This document shows positions 32,818-51,739 of a stretch of DNA of 64,000 nt, piece by piece. The notes beneath the pieces were generated by a model that was not told the DNA's origin, made no database searches, and saw only the letters and a list, made by a program, of their open reading frames with translations. The translations under genes were made by a program, and so were the position numbers. How positions within the stretch are numbered: position 1 is the stretch's first letter; the number at the start of each line of letters is the position of its first letter. Source of the DNA: Cellulophaga fucicola (GTDB lineage Bacteria > Bacteroidota > Bacteroidia > Flavobacteriales > Flavobacteriaceae); NCBI RefSeq assembly GCF_900119145.1, contig NZ_FPIY01000005.1, forward strand, positions 62,001 through 126,000, written 5' to 3'.

Positions 32818-35757
32818 TTATTGCATAGCGTCATAAATAACTTGCTGTATATTGGTTCTTGTATTTAATGTATATAACTTTCTATTATCTCTAGTTGGTG
32901 TTACCCTATTTGATAAGAAAATAAAAAGAACATCATTAATTGGATCCATCCAGACCATTGTACCAGTAAACCCTGTATGCCCAAAACTTTCTTTACTTGC
33001 ATCTTTAGCAGTATTGCTGTTTTCTCCTTTATAAGTCAAATAAGGCTTGTCAAAACCAATTCCTCTATGGTTATTGTTTTCAGGGAACTGAACGCTAGTA
33101 TATTGTTTTAATGTTTTTGAAGAAATGTATTCTTCATTACCATATGTGCCCATATTTAAATACATCTGCATTAACTTGGCTAAGTCATTAGCATTAGAAA
33201 ATAGGCCTGCATTTGCAGATATGCCGCCCATCATAGCAGCGCCTTCGTCATGTACTGTTCCATGTATAGGGTTGTGTCTAAATAAATAGTCGTTCTCTGT
33301 AGGTATAATAGAACTGTTATTAAACTTTTTGGACGGTGTGTAGGTTAGCGTTGTAGCTCCTAGTTTATTATAAAAATTAGCATTTACATAATCTACAAAA
33401 TTTGTATTGGTTATTTTTTCAACCATAGTAGGAAGTAGGTAAAATAGCAATCCAGAATATTTGTATTTTTTTACATCACTAACAGGTGATTTTTTTATCG
33501 CTTTAAAGATTTTCTTTTTGTAGTTATGGTGCAACCACATATTGTAGGTAATTTTTAAAGGAAAACGTGCAGAGGAATCTTTTTTTATAGTATTCCATTT
33601 GTAGCTTCCGTTTTTACGCAAAGTCTTTTGCCAATATGGTATCCAAGGAGAAAAACCAGCTTGGTGTGTTAGTATCTGTTTTAGAGAAATATCCGCTTTG
33701 TTAGAACCTTTAAAATAAGGTAAGTAGTCATCAATAGTATTTTCTACATCAAATTTATTTAGATCTTGTAATTGCATAAGAGCTGGCAATGCAGAAGAGA
33801 TCTTAGTTACTGAAGCTATATCATAAATATTAGAAAGGTTTACTTTTGTAGTGTCACTATATATGTGAGTTCCGTAGGCCTTGTGTAAAACAACTTTACC
33901 GTTTTTTGCAACAAGTACTTGTGCGCCTGGAATTGCTTTGTTAGCGATAGCCTGTTGTACTAAAGAGTCTATTCTAGAGTTTAATATTTTAGAATTTAGA
34001 CCTGCATCTTCTGGTAATGTGTATTTAAATCTTATTTTTTTAGAAGTAGTTATGCCGTCTCCAGATTTAAATTTAGAGCCAATACTAATTGGTAATTTTC
34101 CATTTGCAGAAACTCCACCAAATATTAACTGTGCTGCAATATCTTGTGTAATGTTATTGTCTTGATACGTTAGAACAATGCCTTTAACCTCTTCAATGTT
34201 TTTAATTTTAGAAATTGAATATGGATTTTTAAAATATGATACTATTGTTTTTCTAGAAGGTAAATTTTCTACAAACTCAGTTAATGCTTTAGAAAATTCT
34301 ATTTTATTTTTTGGAAAAGCACTAGAGTCGTGTATGCCTACTATTAATAAATTATGCTTTTCAATTTCTTTTTTTAGCGTGCTAATTATTGCGGCATCAG
34401 CATTATTACCTAAGTTAAAATGGTTTATTTTAGTATACAGGCTTAAACTTTTTTGAAAAACAGTTTTTGTTGTATCACCTATAGAGATAGACATAATATT
34501 TAAGGTGTCTAATTTTTTTAGAGGGATAATAGTATCATCATTTTTAATGACTGTTAAAGAAGCTTCTACAAGCTGCCTTTTTAGTAGGTTTGCTTTTGGA
34601 CTATTTAAATCTTTAATTAATTCTTTGCTAGGAGTAGAGCTGTAGTGGTTAAGTTTTGCCCATTGTTTAGCTGCTAATATTTTTCGAACCCTATTATCTA
34701 TATCTACCTGAGAAATTACTTTCTTTTTTACGGCATTTTCAATTTCTAATATAGCTTTAGCAACATCCTGTGTTAACTCTAAAACATCGTTACCCGCTAA
34801 CACAGCTTCCTTGTCTACAATACCAGGCTTATTGTTGTTGGTAACCCCTTTCATACGCATTGCGTCGGTAATAATTAAGCCCTTAAAGCCAAGTCTGTCT
34901 TGTAGTAAATCTGTAACAATAGCTTTAGATAATGTAGAGGGTTTTCCAGAAGCATCCAAAGCAGGAATATTTAAATGTGCAACCATAATACCATTTATAC
35001 CTGCGTTTATAAGTTCCTTAAACGGGTATAATTCTAAGTTATTTAATCGTTCTAAAGAATGATTTATTTGAGGTAAATTATAGTGAGAATCTGTGTTAGT
35101 ATCCCCGTGACCAGGAAAATGCTTTGCTGTTGTTAATAGACCAGCGTCTTGCATACCTTGCATATAAGCAACACTTTTTTGAGCAACTTTGTATTTGTTT
35201 TCTCCAAAAGAACGATAGTTAATAACAGGATTTTCAGGATTGTTATTTACATCTGCAACAGGAGCAAAGTTTAAGTGTAGACCAGTACTCTTTATTTGCC
35301 TAGCAACCTCAACACCTAGATTGTAAATTAGCGTATTATCTTCTATGGCACCTAATGCCATTTGGTAGGGATAGCTAATAGTACTATCTAAACGCATACC
35401 TAAACCCCATTCTGCATCTATAGCTCCAAGAAGAGGTGTTTTTGCTTGCTTCTGGTACATATTCATTTGTCTTACTTGAGTAACAGGGTCTCCCTGAAAA
35501 AACACTAAGCCACCTATGTTCCATTTTTTTATTAAGTCTAAAATTTCTATCTCATGTTCTTTTCCTTTATTAGAATAAGCAGCTACAAACATAAGCTGTC
35601 CAATTTTTTCTTTAGGAGTTAAACTTTTCATTACAGAGTCTACCCATTTACTATTGGTGTATTTTAAAAACTCTGGAGATGTAGTTTTTTCTTGAGCTCT
35701 TACCAGTGTGCTTAGACCTAGTAAAAGCAATACTGTTGTTATAATTTTTATTTTCAT
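32818..35757 (-). CDS. Secreted GH3 N-acetylglucosaminidase (NagZ-like) fused to beta-lactamase-fold hydrolase
   Basis: A 979-residue exported protein with a signal peptide (about 1-21). The GH3 domain (about 40-370) has the NagZ signature KHFPGHG (212-218) with the acid/base dyad D223-S224-H225 and the nucleophile D298 in IITDAM. NagZ-type enzymes release GlcNAc from GlcNAc-anhydroMurNAc or muropeptides. A linker domain follows. The C-terminal serine-hydrolase domain of the class C beta-lactamase/PBP fold (about 590-979) has SVTK (Ser near 648) and HTGFTGT. The usual YxN is YSG, so the second-motif Asn is lost. This domain may be a peptidase or esterase rather than a beta-lactamase. Its start overlaps the symporter gene by 4 nt. 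Confidence 0.9.
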   Translation of the reverse strand: MKIKIITTVLLLLGLSTLVRAQEKTTSPEFLKYTNSKWVDSVMKSLTPKEKIGQLMFVAAYSNKGKEHEIEILDLIKKWNIGGLVFFQGDPVTQVRQMNMYQKQAKTPLLGAIDAEWGLGMRLDSTISYPYQMALGAIEDNTLIYNLGVEVARQIKSTGLHLNFAPVADVNNNPENPVINYRSFGENKYKVAQKSVAYMQGMQDAGLLTTAKHFPGHGDTNTDSHYNLPQINHSLERLNNLELYPFKELINAGINGIMVAHLNIPALDASGKPSTLSKAIVTDLLQDRLGFKGLIITDAMRMKGVTNNNKPGIVDKEAVLAGNDVLELTQDVAKAILEIENAVKKKVISQVDIDNRVRKILAAKQWAKLNHYSSTPSKELIKDLNSPKANLLKRQLVEASLTVIKNDDTIIPLKKLDTLNIMSISIGDTTKTVFQKSLSLYTKINHFNLGNNADAAIISTLKKEIEKHNLLIVGIHDSSAFPKNKIEFSKALTEFVENLPSRKTIVSYFKNPYSISKIKNIEEVKGIVLTYQDNNITQDIAAQLIFGGVSANGKLPISIGSKFKSGDGITTSKKIRFKYTLPEDAGLNSKILNSRIDSLVQQAIANKAIPGAQVLVAKNGKVVLHKAYGTHIYSDTTKVNLSNIYDIASVTKISSALPALMQLQDLNKFDVENTIDDYLPYFKGSNKADISLKQILTHQAGFSPWIPYWQKTLRKNGSYKWNTIKKDSSARFPLKITYNMWLHHNYKKKIFKAIKKSPVSDVKKYKYSGLLFYLLPTMVEKITNTNFVDYVNANFYNKLGATTLTYTPSKKFNNSSIIPTENDYLFRHNPIHGTVHDEGAAMMGGISANAGLFSNANDLAKLMQMYLNMGTYGNEEYISSKTLKQYTSVQFPENNNHRGIGFDKPYLTYKGENSNTAKDASKESFGHTGFTGTMVWMDPINDVLFIFLSNRVTPTRDNRKLYTLNTRTNIQQVIYDAMQ

Positions 35758-37220
35758 TTTTTGTGTATTATATGTAAAGGCAGAATAGTTTTTTTGGAAA
35801 TAATGAATAAGCCTAGCATAGTTAAGAATGCATTTACGAGTAAAATTTCAAAACCAAACTTAAAACCGTTAAACCATTTTTCTGAATTATAGTTTAATAT
35901 TATAGATAGTATTGGGGCAATAATACATACTAAAGGTACAAGTTTGTCTTTTACTTTTTTCTTTGTTATTAAGCCAAAAGCATATAGGCCTAAAATAGGA
36001 CCATAAGTAAAGCCAGCAACTTTAAAAACAGCGCTAACAACACTAGTGTCATTAAACGCATTAAAAATAATAATAACTAAAAACATTAGTAATGTAAAAC
36101 CAATGTGTACATATAGTCTTGTTCTCTTTTTTACAGTTTTGGTTTTTTTAGGACTTAATATATCTATGCAAAAAGAAGTTGTTAGTGCGGTAAGGGCAGA
36201 ATCTGCACTAGAGAAAGCAGCAGCTATAATACCTAGTAGAAAAACAATGCCTGCTAATAAGCCAAAATAATTTAAAGCAAGTAATGGGTAAAGATCATCT
36301 GTGCGTTCTGGAATTGCTATATTATTTGCTGTAGCATATTGATACAATAAAACACCTAAAATTAAGAACAAAATAGTAGAAAGTAAAAATGTAACAGAAA
36401 ACCAAAGTATGTTCTTTTGTGCGTCTTTTATACTTTTACAAGTAAGGTTTTTTTGCATTACATTTTGGTCTAAGCCGTTCATAGCAATGGTGATAAAAAC
36501 ACCAGCAGTAAAGGTTTTAAAGAAATTTCTGTCAGATAGCCAATTCCATTCAAATAAATTAGATTTAGGACTAGAACTAACTAGTTTAAATGTATCGTTA
36601 ATACTTAAGTCTAGTTGACTAAGGATAACAAAAATGCTAATGGTTACTGCTAGTAATAAAAAAGTAGTTTGTATAGTGTCTGTCCATACAATTGTTTTAA
36701 TACCTCCTCTAAATGTATATAACCATATTAGAGAAATTGTTACAAGGACCGTTACCCAAAAAGGAATTCCGAAAGAGTTAAAAAAAGCAATTTGTAAAAC
36801 AATAGCTGCTAAAAATAACCTAAACGAAGCACCTATTGTTTGTGATATTAAAAAAAATGAAGCTCCTGTTCTGTATGACTTTAAACCAAAACGATCTTTT
36901 AAATATTCATAGATTGAAATAAGATTTAACCTGTAAAATAAAGGGATTAGTACAAAAGCAATTACAACATAGCCAACAATATTACCTAGTACAAACTGAA
37001 GATATGTCCACCCAAGATTAGAAACCTCTCCCGGAACAGAAATAAATGTTACACCAGATAAAGATGCGCCAACCATACCATAGGCAACTAAGTACCAGGG
37101 TGACTGTCTATTTCCTGTAAAAAATGTATCGTTATCAGATTTCCTAGAAGTTAAATAACTAATAAGCATTAACAATCCAAAATACCCTGTAATTACGCTA
37201 AAAACTATTAAAGGAGTCAT
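35754..37220 (-). CDS. Sodium:solute symporter (SSS family)
   Basis: An inner-membrane transporter of 488 residues with about 13 hydrophobic helices and SSS-family features (GASLSGVTFISVPGEV near residue 52, FSSADSALTALTTSFCID near 340). The neighbouring glycosidase genes suggest it imports MurNAc, GlcNAc or small muropeptide sugars with sodium; substrate is inferred from context only. It lies 9 nt after the GHL10 gene and overlaps the GH3 gene, so the three are one transcription unit. Confidence 0.88.
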   Translation of the reverse strand: MTPLIVFSVITGYFGLLMLISYLTSRKSDNDTFFTGNRQSPWYLVAYGMVGASLSGVTFISVPGEVSNLGWTYLQFVLGNIVGYVVIAFVLIPLFYRLNLISIYEYLKDRFGLKSYRTGASFFLISQTIGASFRLFLAAIVLQIAFFNSFGIPFWVTVLVTISLIWLYTFRGGIKTIVWTDTIQTTFLLLAVTISIFVILSQLDLSINDTFKLVSSSPKSNLFEWNWLSDRNFFKTFTAGVFITIAMNGLDQNVMQKNLTCKSIKDAQKNILWFSVTFLLSTILFLILGVLLYQYATANNIAIPERTDDLYPLLALNYFGLLAGIVFLLGIIAAAFSSADSALTALTTSFCIDILSPKKTKTVKKRTRLYVHIGFTLLMFLVIIIFNAFNDTSVVSAVFKVAGFTYGPILGLYAFGLITKKKVKDKLVPLVCIIAPILSIILNYNSEKWFNGFKFGFEILLVNAFLTMLGLFIISKKTILPLHIIHKK

Positions 37221-37229
37221 ATCTTTTTT

Positions 37230-38780
37230 TTAATCAATATTAATTTCAAAAAATTCACTTTGATTTCCGGTTCTATCTACAGCGGTTAATCCAATTTTTG
37301 AAATAGGATTTTCAGTGTCTTTTAAAAACAAAGGCAATTTGTAATTTGTAGCTCTTCTATTTAAGATAGTATGCTCCCATTTTTTGCCACTTCTTTTATA
37401 GTATAGCACCCATCTAAATACGTCTGTATTGCTATTGTGTGTCCAGCTAATATTTAATGAGTTTTGCTGTTTTTTAGTTGTAACTATGGGTTGTAAGGGA
37501 GGTGTGTTGTCTAGCCAAGGAGATGCAGGAACAAGTGTTTTGTTTTTGTAAGGATTGGCCAAGAGACCTTTAGATAATGTGTCATATTTAATAAGTGGTC
37601 CAATGCTCCAGTGTACTGTGCCTTTGCTTTTTGGTAGCATACCCCTAGTAATCATAATCTGATTAAAAACTTCGTCTAAATTTTCTTTAGTGCCACCCAA
37701 ATCAACTTTTATGCCAGGCCATAAATGTAATTGTTTGGTATTCTCTGTTTGCCACCAACCTAACAACTCAGGAAAACTTTGTCCTATTTTATTGGTTGTC
37801 CAGTATAGTTGAGGTGTAAAGTAATCTACCCATCCTTCATTAATCCAAAGTTTAGCATCTGCATACAGTTTTTCATATTGATCATAACCAACGACAGACT
37901 CTGGGTATCCAGGTCTCCAAATACCAAACGGACTTAAACCAAATTTTACGTGCGGCTTACTTTTTTTAATTCCCGTATATACATTTTTAATAAAGGTATT
38001 TACGCTTTGCCTTCTCCAATCAGACTTAGATAGTTTTCCGCCATTTTTGGTGTATATGTTCCAGCTTTTAGAATCAGGAAAATCTTTGCCATTATTATAA
38101 GAATCGTACGGATAAAAATAATCATCAAAATGTATTCCATCTACTTCATACCTATTTACAATATCCATGACAACAGCTAAAGATCTGTCTTGAGTTTCTT
38201 TTAGTGATGGATCCATCCAATACATACCATTCTCTAATTCCACAACTAAATTAGGATCTGTTTTAACTACAGATGTTTTTGTAATATCTCCGCCTTGTGT
38301 ATGGTGTGCTCTGTATGGGTTTAGCCAAGCGTGCAACTCTAAGCCTCTTTCGTGAGCTGCGTAAATCCAAAATTGCAGAGGATCGTAAAAAGGCTCTGGT
38401 GCTTTGCCTTGTTCTCCTGTAAGGTAATAAGACCAAGGTTCTATATTACTTTTGTAAAGAGCGTCTGCTTGTGGTCTTACCTGGAAAACTACAGCATTAA
38501 AATTATGATCTTTTAGGTAATCTAAAAGAGCTAAAGCTTCTTTTTGTTGTTCGTAAATTGATAAACCTGGTTTGCTTGGCCAGTTAATATTAGCTACAGT
38601 AGCAACCCAAGCAGCTCTAAACTCTTCAATATTATAAGGTGTTTTTGCATCCCATTTAACAGCTTTATTGTTTTTGCCTAATGGTGTTTTATTGTAAATG
38701 GCTAAATTTTGGTTTGATTTACAACTTATAAAAAATGATGTAATTGATAAGATAAAAAAGCAACGTAAAAGATGATGCAT
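37230..38780 (-). CDS. GHL10-family glycoside hydrolase lipoprotein (DigH/YngK-like)
   Basis: Predicted envelope glycosidase. With the ATG at 38780 the product has 516 residues and a lipoprotein signal ending FFISC. An alternative ATG at 38816 would add 12 residues before the signal, so the shorter start is preferred. The body is the GH10-like (GHL10) barrel: FRAAWVATVANINWPSKPG, VVFQVRPQADALYKS and GIHFDDYFYPYDS. A fibronectin-like C-terminus follows (about 430-516). E. coli DigH (YddW), in this family, cleaves denuded peptidoglycan glycan strands, which fits the NagZ-like and MurQ genes here. The same substrate is inferred. Confidence 0.86.
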   Translation of the reverse strand: MHHLLRCFFILSITSFFISCKSNQNLAIYNKTPLGKNNKAVKWDAKTPYNIEEFRAAWVATVANINWPSKPGLSIYEQQKEALALLDYLKDHNFNAVVFQVRPQADALYKSNIEPWSYYLTGEQGKAPEPFYDPLQFWIYAAHERGLELHAWLNPYRAHHTQGGDITKTSVVKTDPNLVVELENGMYWMDPSLKETQDRSLAVVMDIVNRYEVDGIHFDDYFYPYDSYNNGKDFPDSKSWNIYTKNGGKLSKSDWRRQSVNTFIKNVYTGIKKSKPHVKFGLSPFGIWRPGYPESVVGYDQYEKLYADAKLWINEGWVDYFTPQLYWTTNKIGQSFPELLGWWQTENTKQLHLWPGIKVDLGGTKENLDEVFNQIMITRGMLPKSKGTVHWSIGPLIKYDTLSKGLLANPYKNKTLVPASPWLDNTPPLQPIVTTKKQQNSLNISWTHNSNTDVFRWVLYYKRSGKKWEHTILNRRATNYKLPLFLKDTENPISKIGLTAVDRTGNQSEFFEINID

Positions 38781-38828
38781 AATTTTTGAAGGTTTATTGG
38801 TTTGTTTGTAAAACATATATTGGGTATT

Positions 38829-38867
38829 AAAAAAGTCCTCCAGAAGTAAACCTGAAGAACTTTTTTT
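38829..38867 (-). terminator. Terminator after susD
   Basis: Read on the minus strand, AAAAAGTTCTTCAG pairs with CTGGAGGACTTTTT through two G-U pairs, with an 8-nt loop and a T run. On the plus strand the same positions are mismatches, so the element is oriented for the susC-susD transcript and separates it from the glycosidase operon. Confidence 0.75.
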
Positions 38868-38896
38868 GAAAAACTAAAAACACTATAATTATTTAT

Positions 38897-40609
38897 TTAC
38901 CAACCTGGGTTTTGCTCTAATTCTACTCCTTGATCTTGGTATAAAGTTATTTGATCTAAAGGAAGTGGACTAAGATAAACTTTAGGGTCGTCAAAAACAC
39001 GTAAAGATGCAGCAGCAGAAGCAGGTACAATGTATCCTTCATCTCCGTTTGTTAGTGTAATTTCAGCTAGATCTGCACCTGGGTAATCTGCTTTTACTAT
39101 GTAGGCACCTTGATTAATTTCAGGATTGTTAACCATATCTACATATTCTAATTTTTTCCATCTTTTTAGATCATCTAATCTAAAACCTTCCATCATTAAT
39201 TCCGTTCTTCTTTCTCTTCTAATTTCCCAAAGTAAAGAAGGTACGCTAGAATCTCTGTTTGGATCATCGTAAGTAACACCAGCAACCGCAGGAGAATCTC
39301 CATTTACTTCTAAATGTGGAATAGCAATTCCTGGACGATCTCTTAATACGTTAATAGACTTGTCTAAATCTGCTTGTGATAATGCAGCCCCACCAAGAGT
39401 ACCAATTTCTGCAGCAGCTTCTGCGTAGTTTACTAAAACTTCTCCATAGCGAATAATAGGTGCATCTGTTGGGTTTAAGTTAGAGCTCCCAATAGGATCA
39501 TCTTTAATAGCTTCGTTTAAAAATTTATGTGTAGCAAAACCAGAAGAAGAATGGTTAGATGCAATACCGTTTATACGTAGTTCAGAAGACACAAAAGTTT
39601 CATAAATTCTTGGATCTCTGTTTGCCATAATCTTATCAATTCCTTGGTCGCCTTCATAAACAGTAGAGATACCTATTGGTAATCCGTCATTAGCTAAGTA
39701 AGTATTAATAGCATTTCTAGAAACACCTGTTTGTGGTTCTTTATTATTATAGCTGTTTAGTGCGTGTGTAATTAAGCCTTCTTGGTATTCTTTATAAAGA
39801 ATAACCTCTGGATTGCCAGATAAACTTAAAGAGTTAAAAACTTCTCTATAATTACCTAAACTATATGCGCCAGAGCTTATTACTTCATTAGCAGCCCATT
39901 TTGAAGCTGTTAAATATTCTAAAGCTTTAGCATCATTGTTTTCGTGGTATTTTTGCCAAGTACCTTCATACAACATAATACGCGACATAAAAGCCAAAAC
40001 AACATTCTTATTCACTTCTAAGCCATTATCGTCTACAGAAGATCTAACGTTATCTGCAGCATATTGTAAGTCTTCAAGAACTTTATCCATTACAAATGTA
40101 CGCTCGTCTCTTTTCTTGTAAAGTTGTTCGTTATCATTTTCAGATACTTCTTTATCGTAGTATTGTACATCTCCAAAACGACTAGTTAAGTCGTGGTATT
40201 CTAGTGCTCTAAAAAAGCGACCAATACCTGTCCAGTGATTTATAGCTTCTTGTTCCATAGGCACTGTTTGCACTCTGTCTATAAAAATATTTGCCTTACG
40301 TACCCATCCAAATCCCCAGCCGCCACCAGAAGTTGGTACTTGTTGTGTAAAACGAGCAGGGTTTGTAGAAGCAAAATCATCATTTAAAGATTGTCCAGAA
40401 AAATAGTCACCCCAAGTATAGCTAGAGCCATACCCTTTAAAGTATCCATTGTAAAATCCAAAAGCAAAAGCTTTTACATTTCCTTCACTAGTCCAATATG
40501 TTTCATCTACAAGTAAATCTTGTGGCGGAACATCTAGAAAATCATCTTCACACCCTACAAACGCAATAATGCAAAGAAAAAGCAGTATTAATTTATTTGT
40601 TACTTTCAT
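38897..40609 (-). CDS. susD: SusD/RagB-family surface glycan-binding lipoprotein
   Basis: A 570-residue surface lipoprotein that caps the SusC transporter and binds the substrate. The signal peptide has lipobox FVGC (Cys20), followed by EDDFLDVPPQD, an acidic surface-export signal. SusD features include the TPR-like helical core and the C-terminal RRERRTELMMEGFRLDDLKRW stretch (near residues 455-475). It begins 17 nt after susC. In this block the ligand is predicted to be peptidoglycan-derived glycan or muropeptide. Confidence 0.94.
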   Translation of the reverse strand: MKVTNKLILLFLCIIAFVGCEDDFLDVPPQDLLVDETYWTSEGNVKAFAFGFYNGYFKGYGSSYTWGDYFSGQSLNDDFASTNPARFTQQVPTSGGGWGFGWVRKANIFIDRVQTVPMEQEAINHWTGIGRFFRALEYHDLTSRFGDVQYYDKEVSENDNEQLYKKRDERTFVMDKVLEDLQYAADNVRSSVDDNGLEVNKNVVLAFMSRIMLYEGTWQKYHENNDAKALEYLTASKWAANEVISSGAYSLGNYREVFNSLSLSGNPEVILYKEYQEGLITHALNSYNNKEPQTGVSRNAINTYLANDGLPIGISTVYEGDQGIDKIMANRDPRIYETFVSSELRINGIASNHSSSGFATHKFLNEAIKDDPIGSSNLNPTDAPIIRYGEVLVNYAEAAAEIGTLGGAALSQADLDKSINVLRDRPGIAIPHLEVNGDSPAVAGVTYDDPNRDSSVPSLLWEIRRERRTELMMEGFRLDDLKRWKKLEYVDMVNNPEINQGAYIVKADYPGADLAEITLTNGDEGYIVPASAAASLRVFDDPKVYLSPLPLDQITLYQDQGVELEQNPGW

Positions 40610-40626
40610 TTTTTTAGTTTTAAAAT

Positions 40627-43600
40627 TTATAGAGATATTTGAAGTCCAAGTGAATAGCTTCTTCTAAAAGGATATACTCTACCAAAAGTAGATGTATCAT
40701 TAGTTCCTGCATTAGTATAATCTACCTCAGGATCTACAGGAATTTGTACTCCGCTAATTTCAAATAAGTTTTCTCCACTTACATATAATCTTAGCCTGTT
40801 TAATCTCATCTTTTTTATAACAGATTCAGGAAAAGAGTATCCAAGTGTTATGTTCTTCATACGTAAATAAGACATATTTAATAAGTACTTGGTTTGTGGT
40901 AAAAAGTTCATTTGCGAGTTACTCTGTTGTTGGTCATTTGGTCTAGGGTAATATGCATTTGTGTTTTCTGGTGTCCAGTAATCTAACTGATGATCATACC
41001 AAGCTTCTGCATACCTATATCCAGGAATAAACACAGGTCCGTTTGCCCAAAAATCTCTTTTACCAACACCTTGCATAAACATATTTAAATCAAACCCTTT
41101 CCAGTCTGCTCCTAATTGTATGCTGTATTGATACCTTGGAGTGGTGTTACCAATCACCTTCATATCTCCCGAATCTCCTACAGTATTAGAACCATAGTCA
41201 ATAACACCATCACCATTAGTATCTTTATATTTAATATCTCCAGGACCGTATTTAAACCATCCGTTTGTTTCGTAAATGTCTTGATTAGGTACGCCAGCAA
41301 CATAAGATCCATCAGCATTAAAGTCATCTTCAGTAAAGAATCTATCCGTTTCGTACCCCCAAATTTCACCTAAAACTTTTCCTTCGTAGTTAGAGTAAAT
41401 GCTTTTAGTTGTGTTAGAGTATTTTGTTATTTTCTCTGTAAAGTCTGATAAGGTTGCTGTTGCGTTTATACGTAAGTCATTATCAAATTGATGGTTGTAA
41501 TCTAATGCTAGTTCCCAACCGTTAGTTTGCATTTCTCCAAAATTTCTTCTTGGTGAAGATGTACCAAAAGTACTTGGTAATGTTACACCAGAGCTATGCA
41601 TATCGCTAACCGTTCTCTTGTACCAGTCAAAAGTTAATCCTAATTTATTGTTGAAGAATTTTGCGTCTAAACCAAAATCTAAGGTTGTAATAGTTTCCCA
41701 TGTTAATGAAGATGGTAAAGCACCGGGAGTACCTACTGTAAGCTGATTTTGCCCGTCTATTAACCAGCTAGAAGATGTAGAAGACATAATTCTGTAAATA
41801 CTAGATAAATATGTGTTTTGGTTACCAACAGAACCATAAGAACCTCTAAACTTTAAGAATGATAAAGTTGGATCTAATTTCTGCATAAAATCTTCTTCAG
41901 TTAAAACATAACCAGCAGAAACAGAAGGGAAGTAGCCCCATTTTTTATCTGATGATAATCTAGAAGAGCCATCATAACGAGCATTAACTTCTAAGAGTAG
42001 TTTATCTTTATAAGAGTAGTTAACACGTCCAAAGAAACCTAAAGTAGTCCATTTGTCTCTATCTCCACCAACAAATTGGTCTCCTGTAGCTAAAGCTAAT
42101 TCACCTTGGTCCGGGTTAAGTAATTCTCTTCTTTGCGAGTAATGAAACCAATATTCATAATCTTCCATATCACCACCAAAAGTGAATTTAAACTTATGGT
42201 CGTTAAATTCTTTATCATAATTTAGGTATGCTTTAGCAGTGTTTCTTCTGCTCCAATCAGAGTTATATTGTACACGGTCATAAGCAGAGCTACTGTATGG
42301 TACATAAGAAAAATCTGCTCCTTGTCCCCAAAAGTTATATGCGTAAAGTGTACCGCCAACTTGTTTTTCGTGTTCTTCAACTCTATCGTGTGTAAAATCA
42401 AAATTAATAGCTAAATCTTTAATAGGCTTTAAAGTTGTACCTAAGTTAATTCTAGATAAAGAATAGTTAGTTTCGTTCATATTAGCTTGTTCTACCTCAG
42501 AAATATGATTTCTAAAAGGTTTGCCGTCTACTGTGCCATAAGGGTAAAAAGCAGGCCATCTACTTGTGTAAAACCAAGCATCATATGTAGCAGAACCATA
42601 TTTAAAAGGTTCAGTTGTTGTAGAGTTACTATGTAATACTTTAGCTCTAACATCTACCCAGTCATTAATTGTAGAGTTTACACTAAGGTTTAGGTTGTAA
42701 CGTTGGTATTTATCTGGGTTTGTTTTGTAAACACCGCCTTGATCTAAATATCCTAGCCCTAAGTAATAGTTTGTTTTTTCGCTACCACCAGTTAAAGAAA
42801 AATCGTGTTTTTGTTGTGGTGCCCATTTTTCAACAAACTGCTCTCTTGGGTCCCAAGATCTGTAAAAGAACAAACTACCATCTCTTACTTCATAATCGCG
42901 ACCTTCTACCATTTCGTTTCCAAGATTTTGGCCTCCGTAAAGTTGTTCCCATTCTCTCATTTTTTCAATAGCAAGTTGGTCTATACGCATACCAACAACA
43001 CCATAAGATTGTAAAGAAGGTATTCTTCTGTTTACAGCAGCAAATGCCATTTCTGCACCATCTGCAGCACCAGCAACTTCAGGAGTGTTGGTAGGTGTAG
43101 CCCAAGAAAAGTTATTAGAATAACTTATGGACGGAGCCTTGTTTCTTTTTCCTTTTTTAGTTGTAATTAATATTACACCCCAAGCACCTCTAGCTCCATA
43201 TATAGATGTAGAAGCAGCATCTTTTAAAACAGATATCTCATCTATATCTTCTGGGTTTATAGATTGTAAACTGGGAATTTCTACGTTGTCTACAAGAATT
43301 AGAGGTTGTGCACCACCACCAGTGCCTAAAGTGCCAACATTACCTCTTAACTTAATAATTGGGTTAGTACCTATTTGTCCGCTAGGGGTTGTAATAGTTA
43401 AACCAGGTGTAACACCTTGTAAACCTCTAGCAACATCTGTAATTGGTCTAGATGCCAATACATCTGTATTAATAGATGCAACAGAACCAGTTACGGTTCT
43501 TTTCTTTTGATTACCATAACCAACAAGAACAACCTCATCCAGACCTTGAATATCTGCTTGTAATGTAATTTTAATAAAGTTTTTGTTAGCTAAAGATATT

Positions 43601-43851
43601 TCTTGTTTTGCATATCCTAAATAAGAGAAAACAAGAATTGCATTTTCATTTTCTGGAGTTTGAATGGAAAATTTTCCATCAAAATCAGATTCAGTTCCGT
43701 TACTGGTGTTTTTAACAAAAATACTTACACCAGGAAGAGGTACTCCATCAGGGTCAACTACTTCACCCGTAACTGTTTTTGTCTGTCCAAACATTTGTAT
43801 GGAACATAAAAACAGAAAAAATAAGATTGATTTTTTGAATCCTTTTTTCAT
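40627..43851 (-). CDS. susC: SusC/RagA-family TonB-dependent transporter
   Basis: An outer-membrane importer of 1074 residues. After the signal peptide (about 1-22) come a carboxypeptidase-regulatory-like domain (24-100, DPDGVPLPGVSIFVK), a TonB box (LDEVVLVGYG), a plug containing LRGNVGTLG and the SusC signature DAASTSIYGARGAWGVILITTK, then a large barrel ending SYSLGLQISL. There is no N-terminal sigma/anti-sigma signalling extension, so control probably comes from the divergent DeoR-type regulator. A predicted promoter lies about 145 nt upstream, giving a long leader. Confidence 0.95.
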   Translation of the reverse strand: MKKGFKKSILFFLFLCSIQMFGQTKTVTGEVVDPDGVPLPGVSIFVKNTSNGTESDFDGKFSIQTPENENAILVFSYLGYAKQEISLANKNFIKITLQADIQGLDEVVLVGYGNQKKRTVTGSVASINTDVLASRPITDVARGLQGVTPGLTITTPSGQIGTNPIIKLRGNVGTLGTGGGAQPLILVDNVEIPSLQSINPEDIDEISVLKDAASTSIYGARGAWGVILITTKKGKRNKAPSISYSNNFSWATPTNTPEVAGAADGAEMAFAAVNRRIPSLQSYGVVGMRIDQLAIEKMREWEQLYGGQNLGNEMVEGRDYEVRDGSLFFYRSWDPREQFVEKWAPQQKHDFSLTGGSEKTNYYLGLGYLDQGGVYKTNPDKYQRYNLNLSVNSTINDWVDVRAKVLHSNSTTTEPFKYGSATYDAWFYTSRWPAFYPYGTVDGKPFRNHISEVEQANMNETNYSLSRINLGTTLKPIKDLAINFDFTHDRVEEHEKQVGGTLYAYNFWGQGADFSYVPYSSSAYDRVQYNSDWSRRNTAKAYLNYDKEFNDHKFKFTFGGDMEDYEYWFHYSQRRELLNPDQGELALATGDQFVGGDRDKWTTLGFFGRVNYSYKDKLLLEVNARYDGSSRLSSDKKWGYFPSVSAGYVLTEEDFMQKLDPTLSFLKFRGSYGSVGNQNTYLSSIYRIMSSTSSSWLIDGQNQLTVGTPGALPSSLTWETITTLDFGLDAKFFNNKLGLTFDWYKRTVSDMHSSGVTLPSTFGTSSPRRNFGEMQTNGWELALDYNHQFDNDLRINATATLSDFTEKITKYSNTTKSIYSNYEGKVLGEIWGYETDRFFTEDDFNADGSYVAGVPNQDIYETNGWFKYGPGDIKYKDTNGDGVIDYGSNTVGDSGDMKVIGNTTPRYQYSIQLGADWKGFDLNMFMQGVGKRDFWANGPVFIPGYRYAEAWYDHQLDYWTPENTNAYYPRPNDQQQSNSQMNFLPQTKYLLNMSYLRMKNITLGYSFPESVIKKMRLNRLRLYVSGENLFEISGVQIPVDPEVDYTNAGTNDTSTFGRVYPFRRSYSLGLQISL

Positions 43852-43995
43852 AATTAGAGTTTGTTTTAAATTGTTTTTGGTTTTAGTTAGTAGGTTGCAT
43901 TCTGGGTTATGTAATCTGTTTTAACTCTTTTAAAAGCCATATAAAATCTTTGTTTAATACGCTTGTCAATTAAGTTAACTCATTGTTAATCTTTT

Positions 43996-44003
43996 CAAAC
44001 TTA
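43996..44003 (-). promoter_or_regulatory. Putative -7 box for susC
   Basis: Minus-strand TAAGTTTG matches TAnnTTTG. It would give a 5' leader of roughly 140 nt before the susC ATG at 43851. The leader itself (43852-43990) shows no clear structure by eye. Confidence 0.4.
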
Positions 44004-44004
44004 T

Positions 44005-44101
44005 GCAAAAAAATGCAAATAATTGCGTTATGTGCAATATTTTTTGCAATTTTATGCTGTTTTGTGAGTTATATTGTTTTTATATTGCAGTTTTAAGCAA
44101 T
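44005..44101. promoter_or_regulatory. Cluster of GCAA(T)/ATTGC half-sites between susC and the DeoR-type gene
   Basis: GCAA occurs at 44005, 44015, 44034 and 44046 and its complement at 44023. Two inverted repeats stand out: ATTGC(44022-44026)-N7-GCAAT(44034-44038) and ATTGC(44084-44088)-N8-GCAAT(44097-44101). The cluster lies between the divergent susC and regulator promoters. It is the best candidate operator for the adjacent DeoR-type protein. Confidence 0.5.
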
Positions 44102-44114
44102 GTTTTTAATTGTA

Positions 44115-44122
44115 TATATTTG
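44115..44122 (+). promoter_or_regulatory. Putative -7 box of the DeoR-type regulator gene
   Basis: TATATTTG matches TAnnTTTG and ends 6 nt before the ATG at 44129, again predicting a nearly leaderless transcript. An ATTGC/GCAAT inverted repeat lies 13 nt upstream, so autoregulation is plausible. Confidence 0.5.
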
Positions 44123-44128
44123 CTGCAT

Positions 44129-44878
44129 ATGTTAAAAGAAGAAAGACAACAGTTTATTTTAAACGAAGTAAGGGTGCACAATAGGGTGCTCTTAACAGAT
44201 ATGGCAGATCTTTTAAAAGTATCTATGGATACTATTAGAAGAGATATAAAGGAATTACACAAAGAAAAAAAGCTTAAAAAGGTTCACGGAGGTGCAATCT
44301 CTTTAGGTTTTAATAACTATAGTTTTCAGTTTAATGAGGTATATTCTCTAGAAAAGAAATCTAAAATAGCAGTTAAATGCATAAGTCTTTTACGCAACGG
44401 ACAAGTATTATTGTTAACAGGTGGTACAACTAATATGGAGTTGGCGAGAATGTTACCTACCAATTTGACTTTAACTTGTTTTACGCCAAGTTTGCCTGTA
44501 GCTAACCAATTAATGTCTAAACCTAATGTAGAGGTTATTTTTGTTGGAGGAAAAATAGCTAAGGATGCCCAAATAGCAATGGGAGCAGCGGCTGTTAATA
44601 TATTAAATAGTATAAAGGTTGATATCTGTTTTTTAGGAACACATTCTATTGATTTAGATGAAGGCTTAACGGAGTTTGATTGGGAGATTGTTCAAATGAA
44701 AAAAGCGATGATGCAAGCTTCAAGAAAAGTAATTGCACCTGTTATTTCTGAAAAATTGAATACCAAACAGCGTTATAGGATATGTGATATTCAGCATATA
44801 GATATGCTTATTACAGAATTAGACGCTAATGATGATAAACTAATAGAGTTTAGAAGTAAAAATATTGAAGTGTTGTAG
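44129..44878 (+). CDS. DeoR/GlpR-family transcriptional regulator
   Basis: A sugar-phosphate-responsive repressor of 249 residues from the ATG at 44129. An upstream in-frame start at 44003 would add 42 residues of Cys/Phe-rich sequence encoded across the promoter, so it is rejected. The N-terminal DeoR winged HTH is clear (LLTDMADLLKVSMDTIRRDI, LKKVHGGAI). The C-terminal sensor domain contains the phosphosugar-binding LLTGGTTNMELARML pattern. Divergent from susC and 76 nt ahead of murQ, it probably controls the whole block. MurNAc-6-phosphate or GlcNAc-6-phosphate is the likely effector (inference). Confidence 0.9.
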   Translation: MLKEERQQFILNEVRVHNRVLLTDMADLLKVSMDTIRRDIKELHKEKKLKKVHGGAISLGFNNYSFQFNEVYSLEKKSKIAVKCISLLRNGQVLLLTGGTTNMELARMLPTNLTLTCFTPSLPVANQLMSKPNVEVIFVGGKIAKDAQIAMGAAAVNILNSIKVDICFLGTHSIDLDEGLTEFDWEIVQMKKAMMQASRKVIAPVISEKLNTKQRYRICDIQHIDMLITELDANDDKLIEFRSKNIEVL

Positions 44879-44954
44879 TTTTTAATGTGTTTTTTGTAAT
44901 GCAATAAATGTAATTCTACAGCTTTATTAACACATAATTAATTAAGAGGTATTT

Positions 44955-45770
44955 ATGTTAAATTACATTAAAATTACAGAGCAACCATCTAATTACAACG
45001 GATTAGAAAAAATGAATACCAACGATCTTTTAGTTGGTATAAATAATGAAGATCAAAAAATAGCAGATGCTGTAAAAGCTATTATTCCGTCTATAACAGA
45101 ACTTGTAGATAAAATAACAGATCGTTACAAAAAAGGAGGAAGATTATTTTATATAGGAGCAGGTACAAGTGGTAGGTTGGGTATTTTAGATGCCTCGGAA
45201 ATTCCACCAACTTTTGGCATTCAAGACAGGGTAATAGGTATTATTGCAGGCGGAGATAAAGCCATAAGAAATGCAGTAGAAAATGCAGAAGATAATTTAG
45301 ATCAAGCTTGGAAAGACTTGGAAGAATTTAATATTACAACCAACGATGTTGTTGTCGGAATTGCAGCATCTGGTACAACCCCTTATGTCATTGGAGGTGT
45401 TACTATGGCTAAAGAAAAAGGGTTGTTAACAACTTGTGTAACCAACAATCCAGGTTCTCCATTAACCAAAGTGGTTTCTATACCTTTAGAAATAAATGTT
45501 GGACCAGAGTTTGTTACTGGTAGTACAAGGATGAAAAGTGGGACTTCGCAAAAAATTGTATTAAATATGATTTCTACAGCATTAATGATAAAAGTTGGCA
45601 GAGTAGAAGACAATAAAATGGTTAATATGCAATTAAGTAACGTAAAACTTGTAGATAGAGGTACGCGTTATTTAGTGCAAGAGTTGCATATTAATTATGA
45701 TGATGCTAAACAGATGCTAGAAAAATATGGATCTGTAAAAAAAGCAATAGAGGTGTTTAAGAAGGTTTAA
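44955..45770 (+). CDS. murQ: N-acetylmuramic acid 6-phosphate etherase
   Basis: A cytosolic lyase that splits the lactyl ether of MurNAc-6-phosphate to give GlcNAc-6-phosphate and D-lactate, a committed step of cell-wall sugar recycling. The 271 residues have the SIS fold with the family signature GTSGRLGILDASEIPPTFG (near residue 69), a second motif with NAVENAEDN, and FVTGSTRMKSGTSQK. It is slightly shorter than E. coli MurQ (298). A Shine-Dalgarno-like AAGAGG lies 5 nt upstream, unusual in this phylum. It is cotranscribed with the DeoR-type gene. Confidence 0.96.
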   Translation: MLNYIKITEQPSNYNGLEKMNTNDLLVGINNEDQKIADAVKAIIPSITELVDKITDRYKKGGRLFYIGAGTSGRLGILDASEIPPTFGIQDRVIGIIAGGDKAIRNAVENAEDNLDQAWKDLEEFNITTNDVVVGIAASGTTPYVIGGVTMAKEKGLLTTCVTNNPGSPLTKVVSIPLEINVGPEFVTGSTRMKSGTSQKIVLNMISTALMIKVGRVEDNKMVNMQLSNVKLVDRGTRYLVQELHINYDDAKQMLEKYGSVKKAIEVFKKV

Positions 45771-46213: not shown

Positions 46214-48040
46214 TTATTTAGCAGTGTTTTCTGGTTTGTAATTTATGGTAACTCTAGTTCCTTTATCCTTTGTAGAGTTTATAAATAAGCGTCCGTTAAT
46301 GTAATTTATGCGTTCTTTCATATAAAAAAGACCCATACCACCTTCGCTATTGTTTTTAGGTGTTTTGTGTAAAATAGTATCATCAAACCCTTTGCCATCA
46401 TCATCTATTAAAACACTTAGTATACCTTGGTTATAGTTTATGCTAAGTAAAATGTAATTAGAATTGGCATATTTTATTGCGTTATTTATTGCTTCTTGAG
46501 CAACTCTATAAATATTGGTTTCGGCTAGAGAATTAAAACGAATGTTTTTATCTATCTTATTCTCAAAAAGAATATTTTTCCCTGTTAGTTTAGATAATTC
46601 TACGGTCATTTTTTGCAAAGCAGAAAAAAGACCATGATCTTTAAGTTCAGGAGGTGTAAGGTTAAATGTAGCTGTGCGCACTCCTTTTATAAGGTCTGAG
46701 CAAAGCGTTTTTAAGTATGCTATTTTTTCTTCTGTTTTATCTTTATTATCTAGATTTATAGACTCTATGTTAAACTTAAGAGCAGTAAGCATTTGTCCTA
46801 TTCCGTCGTGTATATCTTTAGCAATACGCTTGCGTTCTTCTTCTTGTCCTTCTACAATCTGACTCGCTTGTAATTTTCTTTGAAGTATTTTGTCTTCAAA
46901 ATTTTGCTTGGTTAATTGTTCTAATTTTTGCTGATTTTCTATGCGTTCTGTAATATCAGAACATAAAATCAAAATACTTTGTTTTGTAGAAGATTGATGA
47001 AGCGGAATTATAGACATATCTAACCAAATATCTTGCCCCTTTTTAGTTCTAATTTTTATTTCTTCAGTTCTAATATTTTTTCTGCTATTCCTTAATACTT
47101 CTTTTAAATACTGTTGCTGTCCATCGTTAATGGTAAGTATTTCAGATAACGGTTTAGACAAGTCTTGAGTACTACACCCTAAAAGGTCTTGAAATTTTTT
47201 ACTAATAAAAACAACACTTTCATTATTCTTAATGCTAGCAAACAATGCTGCATTATCTATAACAAAATTTAGCTCTTGTAGTTCTTGTAGCGAGTGTTCT
47301 TTTTCTTGATATAGTTGCTCTATTTTAGAGATGTTTTCTTCAGACTCAATCTTGCTTTTTAAAAGCTTAGCTATAGTGTTTCGTATCTGTATAGATAATG
47401 GTCTAAAAATAAATAGAATTTCTAACAGAAGAATTAACAAAGAAAAAGCAACTAATAAATACTCTTTTTGCTTTAGTTTTTGAAGTTGTGTTTTACTAAT
47501 ACTATCATATTTGTTTACAATAGTATCCATCATATTTAAAAATATAGGTTCATTTTTTAATAGAACATCAATATTCTCTTCTTGGTTAGCAGTATCTTCT
47601 GATTTAAGTTGAATTGTATTGTTAGCAGCATTTACCATTGCTGTGTGATGCGGTGTAATTTTTTTTAAAAGCGTTAAAATATCCTTATTATCCTCTTTGG
47701 GTATGCCCATAGAGTCATTACCAAACTGAAGCGCTTTATGTGATAAGCTCCAGACGTCTAGCGTTTTTTTAGTATGAAGTAAAATTTGTTCTTTATCTTC
47801 TTTAGAGCTAATTCTATTTAATAGTAAAATATCTTTTACTAATTTCTGACTGTAAGCACGTTGCCTCCCCGCAACATTAATGACTCTAGAATCATTTAAC
47901 TGAGAGTTTAAATGAACCTGAATTAAAATTTGAGAAAATACAATTGAAAAAGCAATAGCTAATAAAGCTAATAAGTACCACTTTCTAACTCTTAAAAAAG
48001 TAGTGTTGTCTAAAGATTTTTCAAATTTATTATTATTCAT
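46214..48040 (-). CDS. NarX-like sensor histidine kinase
   Basis: A 608-residue membrane kinase. Domains: first membrane helix (about 22-42), periplasmic PilJ/NarX-type sensor (45-190), second helix (195-213), a PAS domain (about 255-368), HisKA_3 with phospho-acceptor His411 (AKDIHDGIGQ) and an HATPase domain (IDDDGKGFDD, EGGMGLFYMKERI). Residues 52-66 (RVINVAGRQRAYSQK) match the P-box that binds nitrate/nitrite in NarX/NarQ. No response regulator gene is adjacent; the likely partner is the NarL-type regulator encoded at 55662-56333. It is cotranscribed with nirB and nirD, suggesting feedback of the operon on its own sensing. Confidence 0.92.
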   Translation of the reverse strand: MNNNKFEKSLDNTTFLRVRKWYLLALLAIAFSIVFSQILIQVHLNSQLNDSRVINVAGRQRAYSQKLVKDILLLNRISSKEDKEQILLHTKKTLDVWSLSHKALQFGNDSMGIPKEDNKDILTLLKKITPHHTAMVNAANNTIQLKSEDTANQEENIDVLLKNEPIFLNMMDTIVNKYDSISKTQLQKLKQKEYLLVAFSLLILLLEILFIFRPLSIQIRNTIAKLLKSKIESEENISKIEQLYQEKEHSLQELQELNFVIDNAALFASIKNNESVVFISKKFQDLLGCSTQDLSKPLSEILTINDGQQQYLKEVLRNSRKNIRTEEIKIRTKKGQDIWLDMSIIPLHQSSTKQSILILCSDITERIENQQKLEQLTKQNFEDKILQRKLQASQIVEGQEEERKRIAKDIHDGIGQMLTALKFNIESINLDNKDKTEEKIAYLKTLCSDLIKGVRTATFNLTPPELKDHGLFSALQKMTVELSKLTGKNILFENKIDKNIRFNSLAETNIYRVAQEAINNAIKYANSNYILLSINYNQGILSVLIDDDGKGFDDTILHKTPKNNSEGGMGLFYMKERINYINGRLFINSTKDKGTRVTINYKPENTAK

Positions 48041-48073
48041 AAGTAGTGCATCTTTCTATAGAAGCAAATAAAA

Positions 48074-48661
48074 TTAAGATAATGCTTTGCTAACAAGCTC
48101 TAAAGACGTTTTAGATAAAGGTAGTTTTAAAGCGGCTTCTTGACCTTCTTTAGACATCTTACGCCATGTTTTTTGTAAAATATCAATCAGTTTCTCTTCT
48201 GAATATTTCTGGGCAAAAGGTTCAAAGTAATATTCAAGAAACACCAAGCAGATTACATCTTCCAAAGTTTGGGTTTCTTCATTCTTTTTAAGTTGCTTTT
48301 TTTCTAATAGAAAAGCAACATTATGAATGGTTTCCTGATCATAACCAATGCTTTCTAGCAGTTCGCCAGCTTTTTTAGCATGAAACTTCTTTAGGTCCTG
48401 ACGCCATGTGAGGTAGCCCGTTCTGTTCATTTCATAAGAATCACGGGCAATTTCCCAACGGCAAATATGTTGGCATCGTGCCGTAAGTTGTAATACTTCT
48501 GATGCATTAGGGGCAAAAGAGTTTAATTTCTCTGTCATACGCATTGCGTAGAGCACTTCTTTAGCATATTCTTTACCTTCAAAAATTTCTTTATTTGGAT
48601 CTTGCTCATTTGCTTTATCAAAAAGTATAAAAGCTTGCTCTAATTTATTTACTATTGCCAT
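48074..48661 (-). CDS. DUF4202 family protein
   Basis: A soluble helical protein of 195 residues, unknown function. A TTG start at 48682 is possible, but the ATG at 48661 (MAIVNKLEQAFILFDKANEQ) gives the usual N-terminus. Conserved His/Arg clusters such as TARCQHICRWEIARDSYE and WRQDLKKFHAKKAGELL look like an HD-domain-type metal site. In Bacteroidota and proteobacteria this family is found next to nitrite-assimilation genes, as here (23 nt after nirD). It may be a maturation or regulatory factor for nitrite reductase; this is inference. Confidence 0.82.
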   Translation of the reverse strand: MAIVNKLEQAFILFDKANEQDPNKEIFEGKEYAKEVLYAMRMTEKLNSFAPNASEVLQLTARCQHICRWEIARDSYEMNRTGYLTWRQDLKKFHAKKAGELLESIGYDQETIHNVAFLLEKKQLKKNEETQTLEDVICLVFLEYYFEPFAQKYSEEKLIDILQKTWRKMSKEGQEAALKLPLSKTSLELVSKALS

Positions 48662-48684
48662 ATGTGGTAAGGTTAGTTCCAAAA

Positions 48685-49065
48685 CTATTTAGAAAACCCA
48701 ATATACACAAAACCATCTTCAATTTTTACAGGATATGTTGCAATAGCGTCTAATGTGCCATTTAAATTTTCACCTGTTTCTAGTGAAAAAGTATTTTTAT
48801 GCAGAGGACAAGCTACTTTTGGAGTGCCCATATCTTCACCAATCATTCCGCGAGAAAGTACCATTTCCATTTTATGCGGACATAAATTTTGGCAAGCATA
48901 CCATTTGTTTTCGCGAGTAAAATTAAAAACTGCTATTTGTTTCTCATTATACTTTACACAAGCACCGCCATTTTTCGGAAATTTTGTAACTGCAGCAGCC
49001 TTATACCAAATAGTAACTTCTTCAAGTGTTGTTACAGAGTATTCTTTTAAAATAGAATCTATCAT
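48685..49065 (-). CDS. nirD: Nitrite reductase small subunit, Rieske type
   Basis: A 126-residue Rieske [2Fe-2S] protein that partners NirB in reducing nitrite to ammonium. Both cluster-binding pairs are intact: CPHK (in CQNLCPHK, near residue 62) and CPLHKN (near residue 92). Many stand-alone NirD proteins lack these ligands, so here the cluster is probably present. The gene lies 33 nt after nirB and 23 nt before the DUF4202 gene. Confidence 0.93.
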   Translation of the reverse strand: MIDSILKEYSVTTLEEVTIWYKAAAVTKFPKNGGACVKYNEKQIAVFNFTRENKWYACQNLCPHKMEMVLSRGMIGEDMGTPKVACPLHKNTFSLETGENLNGTLDAIATYPVKIEDGFVYIGFSK

Positions 49066-49098
49066 GTTTTTTAATTTTTTAATTCAATATTTATTCTA

Positions 49099-51612: not shown

Positions 51613-51738
51613 ACGTACGTATTTATCAGGTTACAAGGCAAAACTAAGTATAATTACGTATATTTTATCTGTTTTTATCGAAATAAATACGTAGTTTTGT
51701 TATCGTATTAATAATTTATCACTTTAATAATTACGTAT
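51611..51738. promoter_or_regulatory. Divergent nirB / uroporphyrinogen methyltransferase control region with TACGTA motifs
   Basis: The intergenic region holds TACGTA at 51612 and 51616 (overlapping, in the palindrome ATACGTACGTAT), 51655, 51688 and 51732. The -7 boxes are TAGTTTTG on the minus strand (51646-51639, for nirB) and TAGTTTTG on the plus strand (51692-51699, for the methyltransferase gene). The central motifs at 51655 and 51688 are 33 bp apart, about three helical turns, and each lies close to one box. This is probably the control site of the local nitrate regulator. Confidence 0.62.
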
Positions 51739-51739
51739 T

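Follow-up and report, generated by a model that had tools for sequence, protein, structure and literature searches.

A SusC/SusD Locus Associated With Peptidoglycan Genes in Cellulophaga fucicola and Other Bacteroidota

Introduction

What does a SusC/SusD uptake system import when the genes around it are of the peptidoglycan type, given that a cell-wall diet is not usually associated with systems of this kind? The question is raised by a 13-kb block of seven genes (positions 32818-45770) within a 64,000-nucleotide stretch of the Cellulophaga fucicola genome (G000:C9:62001-126000 of a 3.92-Mb genome; this whole stretch is hereafter the window), for which a preliminary description had proposed a TonB-powered locus dedicated to the glycan strands of the cell wall. 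The comparative analysis reported here leads us to regard it as likely that the locus uses peptidoglycan fragments, through import by SusC/SusD, trimming in the periplasm, uptake of N-acetylmuramic acid (MurNAc), and the MurQ route. In simpler terms, the gene set probably captures pieces of cell wall at the surface, takes them in, and burns their sugars.

Organization of the Locus

All seven genes lie where the preliminary description had placed them, and each encodes a protein with a Pfam match over the cut-off, in addition to NCBIfam support. Five genes occupy the minus strand; read in the direction of transcription, they encode a SusC-type TonB-linked outer-membrane transporter of 1074 amino acids (40627..43851; TIGR04056, 1.2e-263; TIGR04057; Plug, barrel, and CarboxypepD_reg domains), a SusD-type lipoprotein of 570 amino acids (38897..40609; PF07980 (SusD_RagB), 1.5e-32; PF14322, 8e-9), a GHL10 lipoprotein of 528 amino acids predicted to cut peptidoglycan glycan (37230..38816; PF02638, 6.6e-61), a sodium/solute symporter (SSF) of 488 amino acids proposed to import MurNAc or a small amino sugar (35754..37220; PF00474, 3.2e-26), and a secreted NagZ-type GH3 enzyme of 979 amino acids (32818..35757). 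The last, as had been claimed, is fused to a beta-lactamase-fold serine hydrolase, both domains being found in the single protein (PF00933, 4e-77; PF00144, 4.5e-43). With intergenic gaps of 17, 80, 9, and -4 bases, these genes look like one operon. Adjacent SusC and SusD genes (the 17-base gap) and glycan-active enzymes (GHL10, GH3) in the same gene run are features of a Sus-type locus.

Divergent from this operon, across a gap of 277 bases, stands a plus-strand pair encoding a DeoR-family regulator of 249 amino acids (44129..44878; PF00455 (DeoRC), 1.9e-41; PF08220, 1.1e-13) and MurQ, the MurNAc-6-phosphate etherase, of 271 amino acids (44955..45770; SIS-type Pfam domains). The identification of MurQ holds, as PRK05441 (4.3e-107) and PRK12570 exceed their NCBIfam cut-offs and TIGR00274, at 293 bits, falls slightly below 302; that of the regulator holds as to family, while its proposed open reading frame start at 44003 should probably be moved to 44129, because the DeoR proteins of most relatives are approximately 249 amino acids long and begin at an MLKEER-type start. 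The block is not a chance assembly, since a second species of the genus (G302; L088) keeps all seven genes at 83-93% protein identity; these are the two genomes, of the 18 searched in the genus, that carry the SusD ortholog.

Recurrence of SusC/SusD With Peptidoglycan Genes

The association extends far beyond the genus. Among the best 80 of 581 SusD-related loci in GTDB genomes, peptidoglycan markers (GHL10, NamZ, which is the same protein as YbbC, MurQ, or NlpC/P60 within approximately 10 kb, sought by BLAST with one or two references for each family, part of the matches being checked by Pfam) lie near 35 of the 51 loci whose SusD is at least 50% identical to that of the window and near 12 of the 29 below 50%; two of the 51 (L130 and L134, the latter from Christiangramia bathymodioli) correspond to the genomes that supplied the NamZ, NlpC, and epimerase references (G119 and G266) and match by construction. 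Near more distant SusD homologs, by comparison, markers were found at 2/37 loci (p 7e-10 against 35/51, with loci treated as independent and with controls from Flavobacteriaceae only, whereas the 51 come from several classes). The window's own SusD, five orthologs of at least 70% identity, and the fragment L095 are excluded from these controls; a smaller control that also omits L093 and L094, both near MurQ, and seven more gives 0/28, or 1/28 counting the epimerase type, and including all nine gives 2/37.

Five classes share the association among the 80 loci, with markers at 9/9 loci of Flavobacteriia, 13/15 of Sphingobacteriia, 14/25 of Bacteroidia, 10/17 of Cytophagia, and 1/1 of Balneolia, compared with 0/12 of Chitinophagia and 0/1 unplaced. 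In a quick SusD tree of 114 rows, the marker label changes 14 times against a shuffled mean of 38.2 (0/500 shuffles as low), and all 13 rows of the window's clade carry it; the tree tool warns of long branches, near relatives clustering anyway, and the SusD of L094 falls among the controls.

After SusC/SusD, the commonest neighbors in the 80 loci are GHL10 (30), NamZ (24), a metallophosphoesterase-propeller protein (24), a DUF4623-type protein (17, the label coming from one tested member), SSF (16), and DeoR (14), followed by MurQ, BadF-type kinases, a second SusD type, and one further cluster (11 each). The metallophosphoesterase protein, of about 614 amino acids with a PQQ-type propeller, is exemplified by L140:11790-13631 and occurs at 23 other SusD loci. 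The DUF4623-type protein stands near SusD in many Bacteroidales loci (L188:11550-13238 and 16 others), and such loci also hold Amidase_3 proteins, one of which ends in a dockerin-like tail (L188:15640-18240); the two types are possibly surface peptidoglycan-binding and amidase parts, respectively.

Within Flavobacteriaceae, SusD matches at 1e-60 occur in 34/299 genomes, and orthologs of at least 70% identity in 5/299, counting the genome of the window; a fragment at 67% identity comes in addition. Comparison of gene order across this family, which had been suggested as a check of the original proposal, bears out the tie between SusD and peptidoglycan genes. G266 has MurQ-SusC-SusD-GHL10-SSF-epimerase type-NlpC/P60 on one strand (L090), G119 has SusC/SusD flanked by NamZ and an epimerase-type gene, and G030 and G256 have DeoR diverging from SusC-SusD-GHL10. 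The epimerase-type proteins do not reach the curated cut-offs set for DgcA and for L-Ala-D/L-Glu epimerase.

The same catabolic genes are joined to unlike SusC/SusD pairs in other Flavobacteriaceae. Some MurQ match is present in all 199 genomes of the family searched for it (about a dozen have weak matches only), and most of the closest MurQ relatives lie in a recycling locus without SusC/SusD, in which DeoR-MurQ is divergent from a gene run of NagB, GHL10 (present in some), an AmpG-like permease of the major facilitator superfamily (MFS), NagZ, and AnmK; the window's own genome has a reduced form, with MurQ beside NagZ and AnmK (L036). Sixty MurQ loci, a non-random set (L036, the 17 closest relatives, 18 plus 4 others, and 20 sampled at intervals further down the list), were divided by our own sorting rule into 24 with recycling genes and no SusC/SusD, 8 with SusC/SusD, and 28 with neither, the last class including L118, L107, and L119, which have peptidoglycan or SSF genes. 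SusD was near none of the 20 loci from lower in the list, five of which have short SusC-like matches (25-29% identity).

One shared SusC/SusD pair accompanies SSF, MurQ, GH3, and NamZ in L106, L121, L123, L126, and L127 (the SusD of L106 being SusD-like_2 by Pfam); relative to L106, the SusC proteins of L115 and L120 are 33% and 30% identical and the SusD proteins 24% and 26%. The GHL10 proteins of L115 and L120 are 65% and 61% identical to that of the window, and the SSF of L115 is 75% identical. In L093, DeoR is divergent from SusC-SusD-GHL10-NamZ-MurQ-SSF-GH3; L116 combines MurQ, GH20, and SusC/SusD, with GHL10 not seen within the stretch; and in L118 the neighbors of MurQ are GHL10, an epimerase type, NlpC/P60, and a GH3-lactamase protein that shares 60% identity with that of the window, with SusC/SusD not seen within the stretch.

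An FAD/Fe-S oxidoreductase of about 970 amino acids (YdiJ/GlcD type) was also seen near MurQ (L094:10168-13095, L121:15021, L123:15027, L126:126, L093:3378, and L129:5492; not in L106 or L127), the best NCBIfam model for the L094 protein being YdiJ, below its cut-off. As MurQ releases D-lactate, these enzymes may consume it.

The Predicted Glycan-Cutting and Hydrolase Proteins

The only solved GHL10 relative found for the window protein is Cwp19 (4.4e-73), whose GHL10 domain is a peptidoglycan lytic transglycosylase (PMC6016235; this and the other papers cited are drawn upon in excerpt), and a DG-HFDDYFYP stretch is conserved; a domain over the cut-off is thus joined by similarity to a proven member. 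PF02638 also matches in the E. coli control genome; DigH, of the same family, is described as specific for denuded glycans (PMC12288456). The window's genome has one strong GHL10 match, in the locus, and a second, weak match on C12.

For the GH3 part, the solved relatives (3sql, 6k5j, and B. subtilis YbbD/NagZ, 3bmx) are consistent with a NagZ-type enzyme. The protein contains KHFPG at 212, which we take to be the NagZ-type motif, and, in the fused domain, SVTK at 649 and HTG at 927. The beta-N-acetylhexosaminidase model PRK05337 scores 148 bits against a cut-off of 207, and the sss model for the symporter 157 bits against 184; because both fall below these curated cut-offs, the substrates named here for the two proteins are putative. 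The fused hydrolase domain has PBP4B as its best NCBIfam model (1.8e-44, below its cut-off), and the solved structures most similar to it are those of esterases, peptidases, and beta-lactamases, none of them close (best 3.6e-13). PBP4B belongs to the E. coli murQ operon, and MurQ, AmiE, NagZ, and YbbC cluster in B. subtilis (PMC5061867). A second GH3-lactamase fusion, 40% identical to the first, lies at about 233.7k of G000:C8 (L037:7746), directly before a BshA gene (TIGR03999, 4e-168), and is perhaps a housekeeping paralog.

Both enzymes look periplasmic rather than surface-exposed, since no secretion-tail domain is among the Pfam matches of the GH3 protein and no acidic residues directly follow the lipobox cysteine of the GHL10 protein; in SusD, the lipobox cysteine is followed by E-D-D.

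These domains also bear on the nature of the substrate. The tie to peptidoglycan catabolism recurs in five classes, whereas dedication to glycan strands, or to denuded ones, is not established: the PBP4B/AmiE-like hydrolase domain and, in relatives, the NlpC/P60 and epimerase-type genes point to peptides as well, so that the candidate substrate is widened here to peptidoglycan fragments, muropeptides included. Peptide-bearing fragments appear as likely as denuded strands, or likelier.

Candidate Importer, Kinase, and Regulation

SSF genes adjoin MurQ or NamZ in relatives, and the symporter is proposed as the MurNAc importer by analogy with MurT of Tannerella, which one passage assigns to the same sodium symporter superfamily and another to the MFS (PMC5790795). 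A MurK-like kinase is encoded outside the locus, at G000:C8, and the assignment relies on PDB matches (PF01869 scores just 21 bits, below its cut-off), the top ones being 8oqw (6e-52) and the MurNAc kinase 8ow9 (1.9e-51). The latter is MurK with MurNAc, whose acceptance has been tied to the small residues S133-P134-L135, and 1zbs is NagK (PMC10465942). At the S133-P134-L135 position the genome's own kinase aligns T-S-L; this residue comparison does not separate the two kinase types, given that 1zbs also has S-P-L and matches almost as well (2.4e-47). Elsewhere, the genome has one NamZ, the second MurQ with NagZ and AnmK (L036), and an epimerase-type protein (55%). An AmpG-like permease was found neither there nor in G302, G266, G119, G030, and G256 by a query that recovers it in 2/2 positive genomes (G160 and G108).

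Compared with a MurNAc catabolic divergon, the locus has the etherase, MurQ, and a regulator of the DeoR rather than the MurR type, and it contains no kinase or phosphotransferase system (PTS) gene. The divergent SusC/DeoR promoter region (43852..44128) contains TTGCA/TGCAA seven times against 3.4 expected, several about 10 bases apart (14/300 shuffles have as many). Over 11 SusC regions the count is 44 against 21.9 expected, and over 18 NagB regions of recycling loci 47 against 26.9, the shuffler being simple, with a plain base shuffle as fallback when its walk fails. These repeats weakly suggest possible DeoR operator sites. A Bacteroidetes-type promoter pattern with spacing was seen in only 2/9 regions.

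Adjoining the locus, the window encodes a histidine kinase whose sensor domain is of the PilJ type, a DUF4202 protein (both by Pfam), and then NirB-like and CobA-like open reading frames named by eye, perhaps a nitrite-assimilation block (46214-52513).

Proposed Route

On the favored reading, SusC/SusD would bind soluble peptidoglycan fragments and bring them through the outer membrane; these would be glycan oligomers and muropeptides that come from the cell itself or from neighbors that have lysed. In the periplasm, the GHL10 lipoprotein would then cut the glycan chains, the GH3 domain would take N-acetylglucosamine (GlcNAc) off their non-reducing end, and the serine-hydrolase domain fused to it would free MurNAc from its stem peptide, as AmiE does with NagZ in Bacillus. 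AmiE has a beta-lactamase fold. The symporter would move MurNAc over the inner membrane, the MurK-like kinase encoded elsewhere would phosphorylate it, and MurQ would convert MurNAc-6-phosphate to GlcNAc-6-phosphate and D-lactate, with a phosphorylated amino sugar probably being the signal through which DeoR controls these genes. Should GHL10 prove to share the lytic transglycosylase activity of Cwp19, anhydro ends might be used through AnmK.

Alternative Explanations

Several points weigh against this route. The SusD ligand, the DigH/Cwp19-like cutting by GHL10, and the amidase role of the lactamase-fold domain are each assigned by analogy; the symporter could carry another sugar; the kinase evidence cannot separate MurNAc from GlcNAc; and the Pfam scan of the locus proteins found no NamZ and no MurNAc kinase. 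Markers are missing from 16 of the 51 close SusD relatives (some at contig ends) and from all 12 Chitinophagaceae loci, seven of them at 50% identity or above, some of which have a NagA-type gene instead. The latter loci would suit a system for chitin or GlcNAc oligosaccharides, in which GlcNAc oligomers enter through SusC/SusD, GH3 splits off GlcNAc for the symporter to take up, and MurQ is a neighbor retained for ordinary recycling. Consistent with such a system, GH20 and a NagP-like MFS protein accompany MurQ and SusC/SusD in L090, L115, L116, L120, and L132, a GH18 protein occurs in the L121 locus, and RmNag3 of Rhodothermus, with the same domain order as the window's fusion, acts on chitooligosaccharides, cutting chitobiose and chitopentaose (PMC6987092). 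A plain chitin locus is nonetheless made less likely by the Pfam content of the locus proteins, which includes no chitinase and no GH20; moreover, GHL10, NamZ, NlpC/P60, and epimerase-type genes, for which chitin has no need, recur with SusD of the window's type, and the sole solved GHL10 relative found acts on peptidoglycan. We consider the chitin explanation unlikely.

A narrower version of the peptidoglycan reading, with which its odds overlap, is that the locus stands in for an AmpG route and recaptures nothing but what the cell's own wall turnover releases. The AmpG-like permease was not found in any of the six tested genomes with window-type SusC/SusD, and the window and the recycling locus have DeoR, MurQ, GHL10, and a GH3 in common. 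On the other hand, a SusC/SusD gate handles material outside the outer membrane, and turnover products kept in the periplasm need none; AmpG absence may also be common in the family, as the 28 of 60 MurQ loci without recycling genes and SusC/SusD would allow. Restriction to self-recapture is a doubtful proposition, if a more credible one than chitin. Mere neighborhood, with a SusC/SusD-SSF-glycoside hydrolase operon for an unrelated glycan beside DeoR-MurQ, could draw on the patchiness of the locus (the SusD ortholog in 2/18 genus genomes; SusD near 0/20 MurQ loci from lower in the list), but the association recurs over many genera and with unlike SusC/SusD pairs, which makes such an explanation highly improbable. 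Chance juxtaposition was rejected on the contrast between control and close relatives (2/37 vs. 35/51).

Broader Significance

Should peptidoglycan be the substrate, it would be a regular food of these bacteria alongside plant, algal, and host glycans, with a bearing on bacterial biomass turnover and on the muropeptide levels sensed by hosts; the SusC/SusD family accompanying peptidoglycan genes also offers a direct target for the outer-membrane step in peptidoglycan scavenging. We are somewhat inclined to go further and to see here a widespread, unnamed class of peptidoglycan SusC/SusD loci, apparently assembled several times from unlike SusC/SusD pairs around one core (GHL10 or NamZ, NagZ, SSF, and MurQ). 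Such a class would allow Bacteroidota from a wide range of habitats to use the cell walls of other bacteria as food, and it would have escaped notice owing to the rarity of the usual muramidase families in loci of this kind.

In the open-access literature, screened by title and the start of the abstract, no SusC/SusD locus for peptidoglycan was found; subscription papers lay outside this scope, and an earlier mention is possible. The general idea is already in print, as peptidoglycan families are described as under-represented in Sus-type loci, yet present in several predicted ones (PMC6499787). GH171 belongs to the core set in every Bacteroides species included in one comparison (PMC12131861), peptidoglycan genes of marine bacteria are commoner in free-living than in particle-attached ones (PMC10877868), and expression of GlcNAc catabolism in Polaribacter has been read as a peptidoglycan-like signal (PMC9870897); the excerpts of PMC11573768 and PMC4604654 held nothing relevant. 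Tannerella scavenges peptidoglycan pieces for growth, environmental use being described as little known, and the excerpts name no outer-membrane gate (PMC5388701, PMC7670621).

Comparison With Known Systems

Among the closest known systems, the murQ-murR-murP-amiE-nagZ-ybbC cluster of B. subtilis, where muropeptides are degraded outside the cell, brings together MurQ, a NagZ-type GH3, the MurNAc-L-Ala amidase AmiE, and a MurNAc importer (PMC5061867); the window has MurQ, a NagZ-type GH3, and candidate counterparts of the other two. In the window, by contrast, GH3 and hydrolase form one protein, SSF replaces the PTS and DeoR replaces MurR, SusC/SusD is added, and NamZ lies elsewhere in the genome. 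The Tannerella forsythia operon Tanf_08345-08385 (ampG, ybbC, murT, murK, murQ), also from a member of Bacteroidota, shares MurQ and an importer of the sodium symporter superfamily, which carries MurNAc in Tannerella and is proposed to do so in the window, whereas its kinase and ybbC are inside the operon, its regulator is GppX, and its gene list, in the excerpts, names no SusC/SusD (PMC5790795, PMC5388701, PMC7670621). The Flavobacteriaceae recycling locus (L040, L113, L114) resembles it in setting a DeoR-MurQ pair divergently to an operon that includes GHL10 and a GH3 of the NagZ type, but lacks SusC/SusD, uses an MFS permease rather than SSF, has a GH3 without the lactamase-fold domain, and includes AnmK and NagB.

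At the level of single components, RmNag3 of Rhodothermus marinus matches the fusion protein in its signal peptide and in the order GH3 domain 1, domain 2, and beta-lactamase domain, although the excerpts describe no adjoining glycoside hydrolase gene (PMC6987092). The GlcNAc cluster of Caulobacter couples TonB-powered outer-membrane uptake of one peptidoglycan sugar to catabolic genes, but it serves GlcNAc only, through a PTS permease, and, as excerpted, mentions no SusD and has no MurQ route (PMC13046382). Finally, the window locus has in common with Sus-type polysaccharide utilization loci the SusC/SusD pair and its company of glycoside hydrolases, together with an importer for the inner membrane and a regulator encoded nearby; what sets it apart from them is that its enzymes are of the peptidoglycan type.

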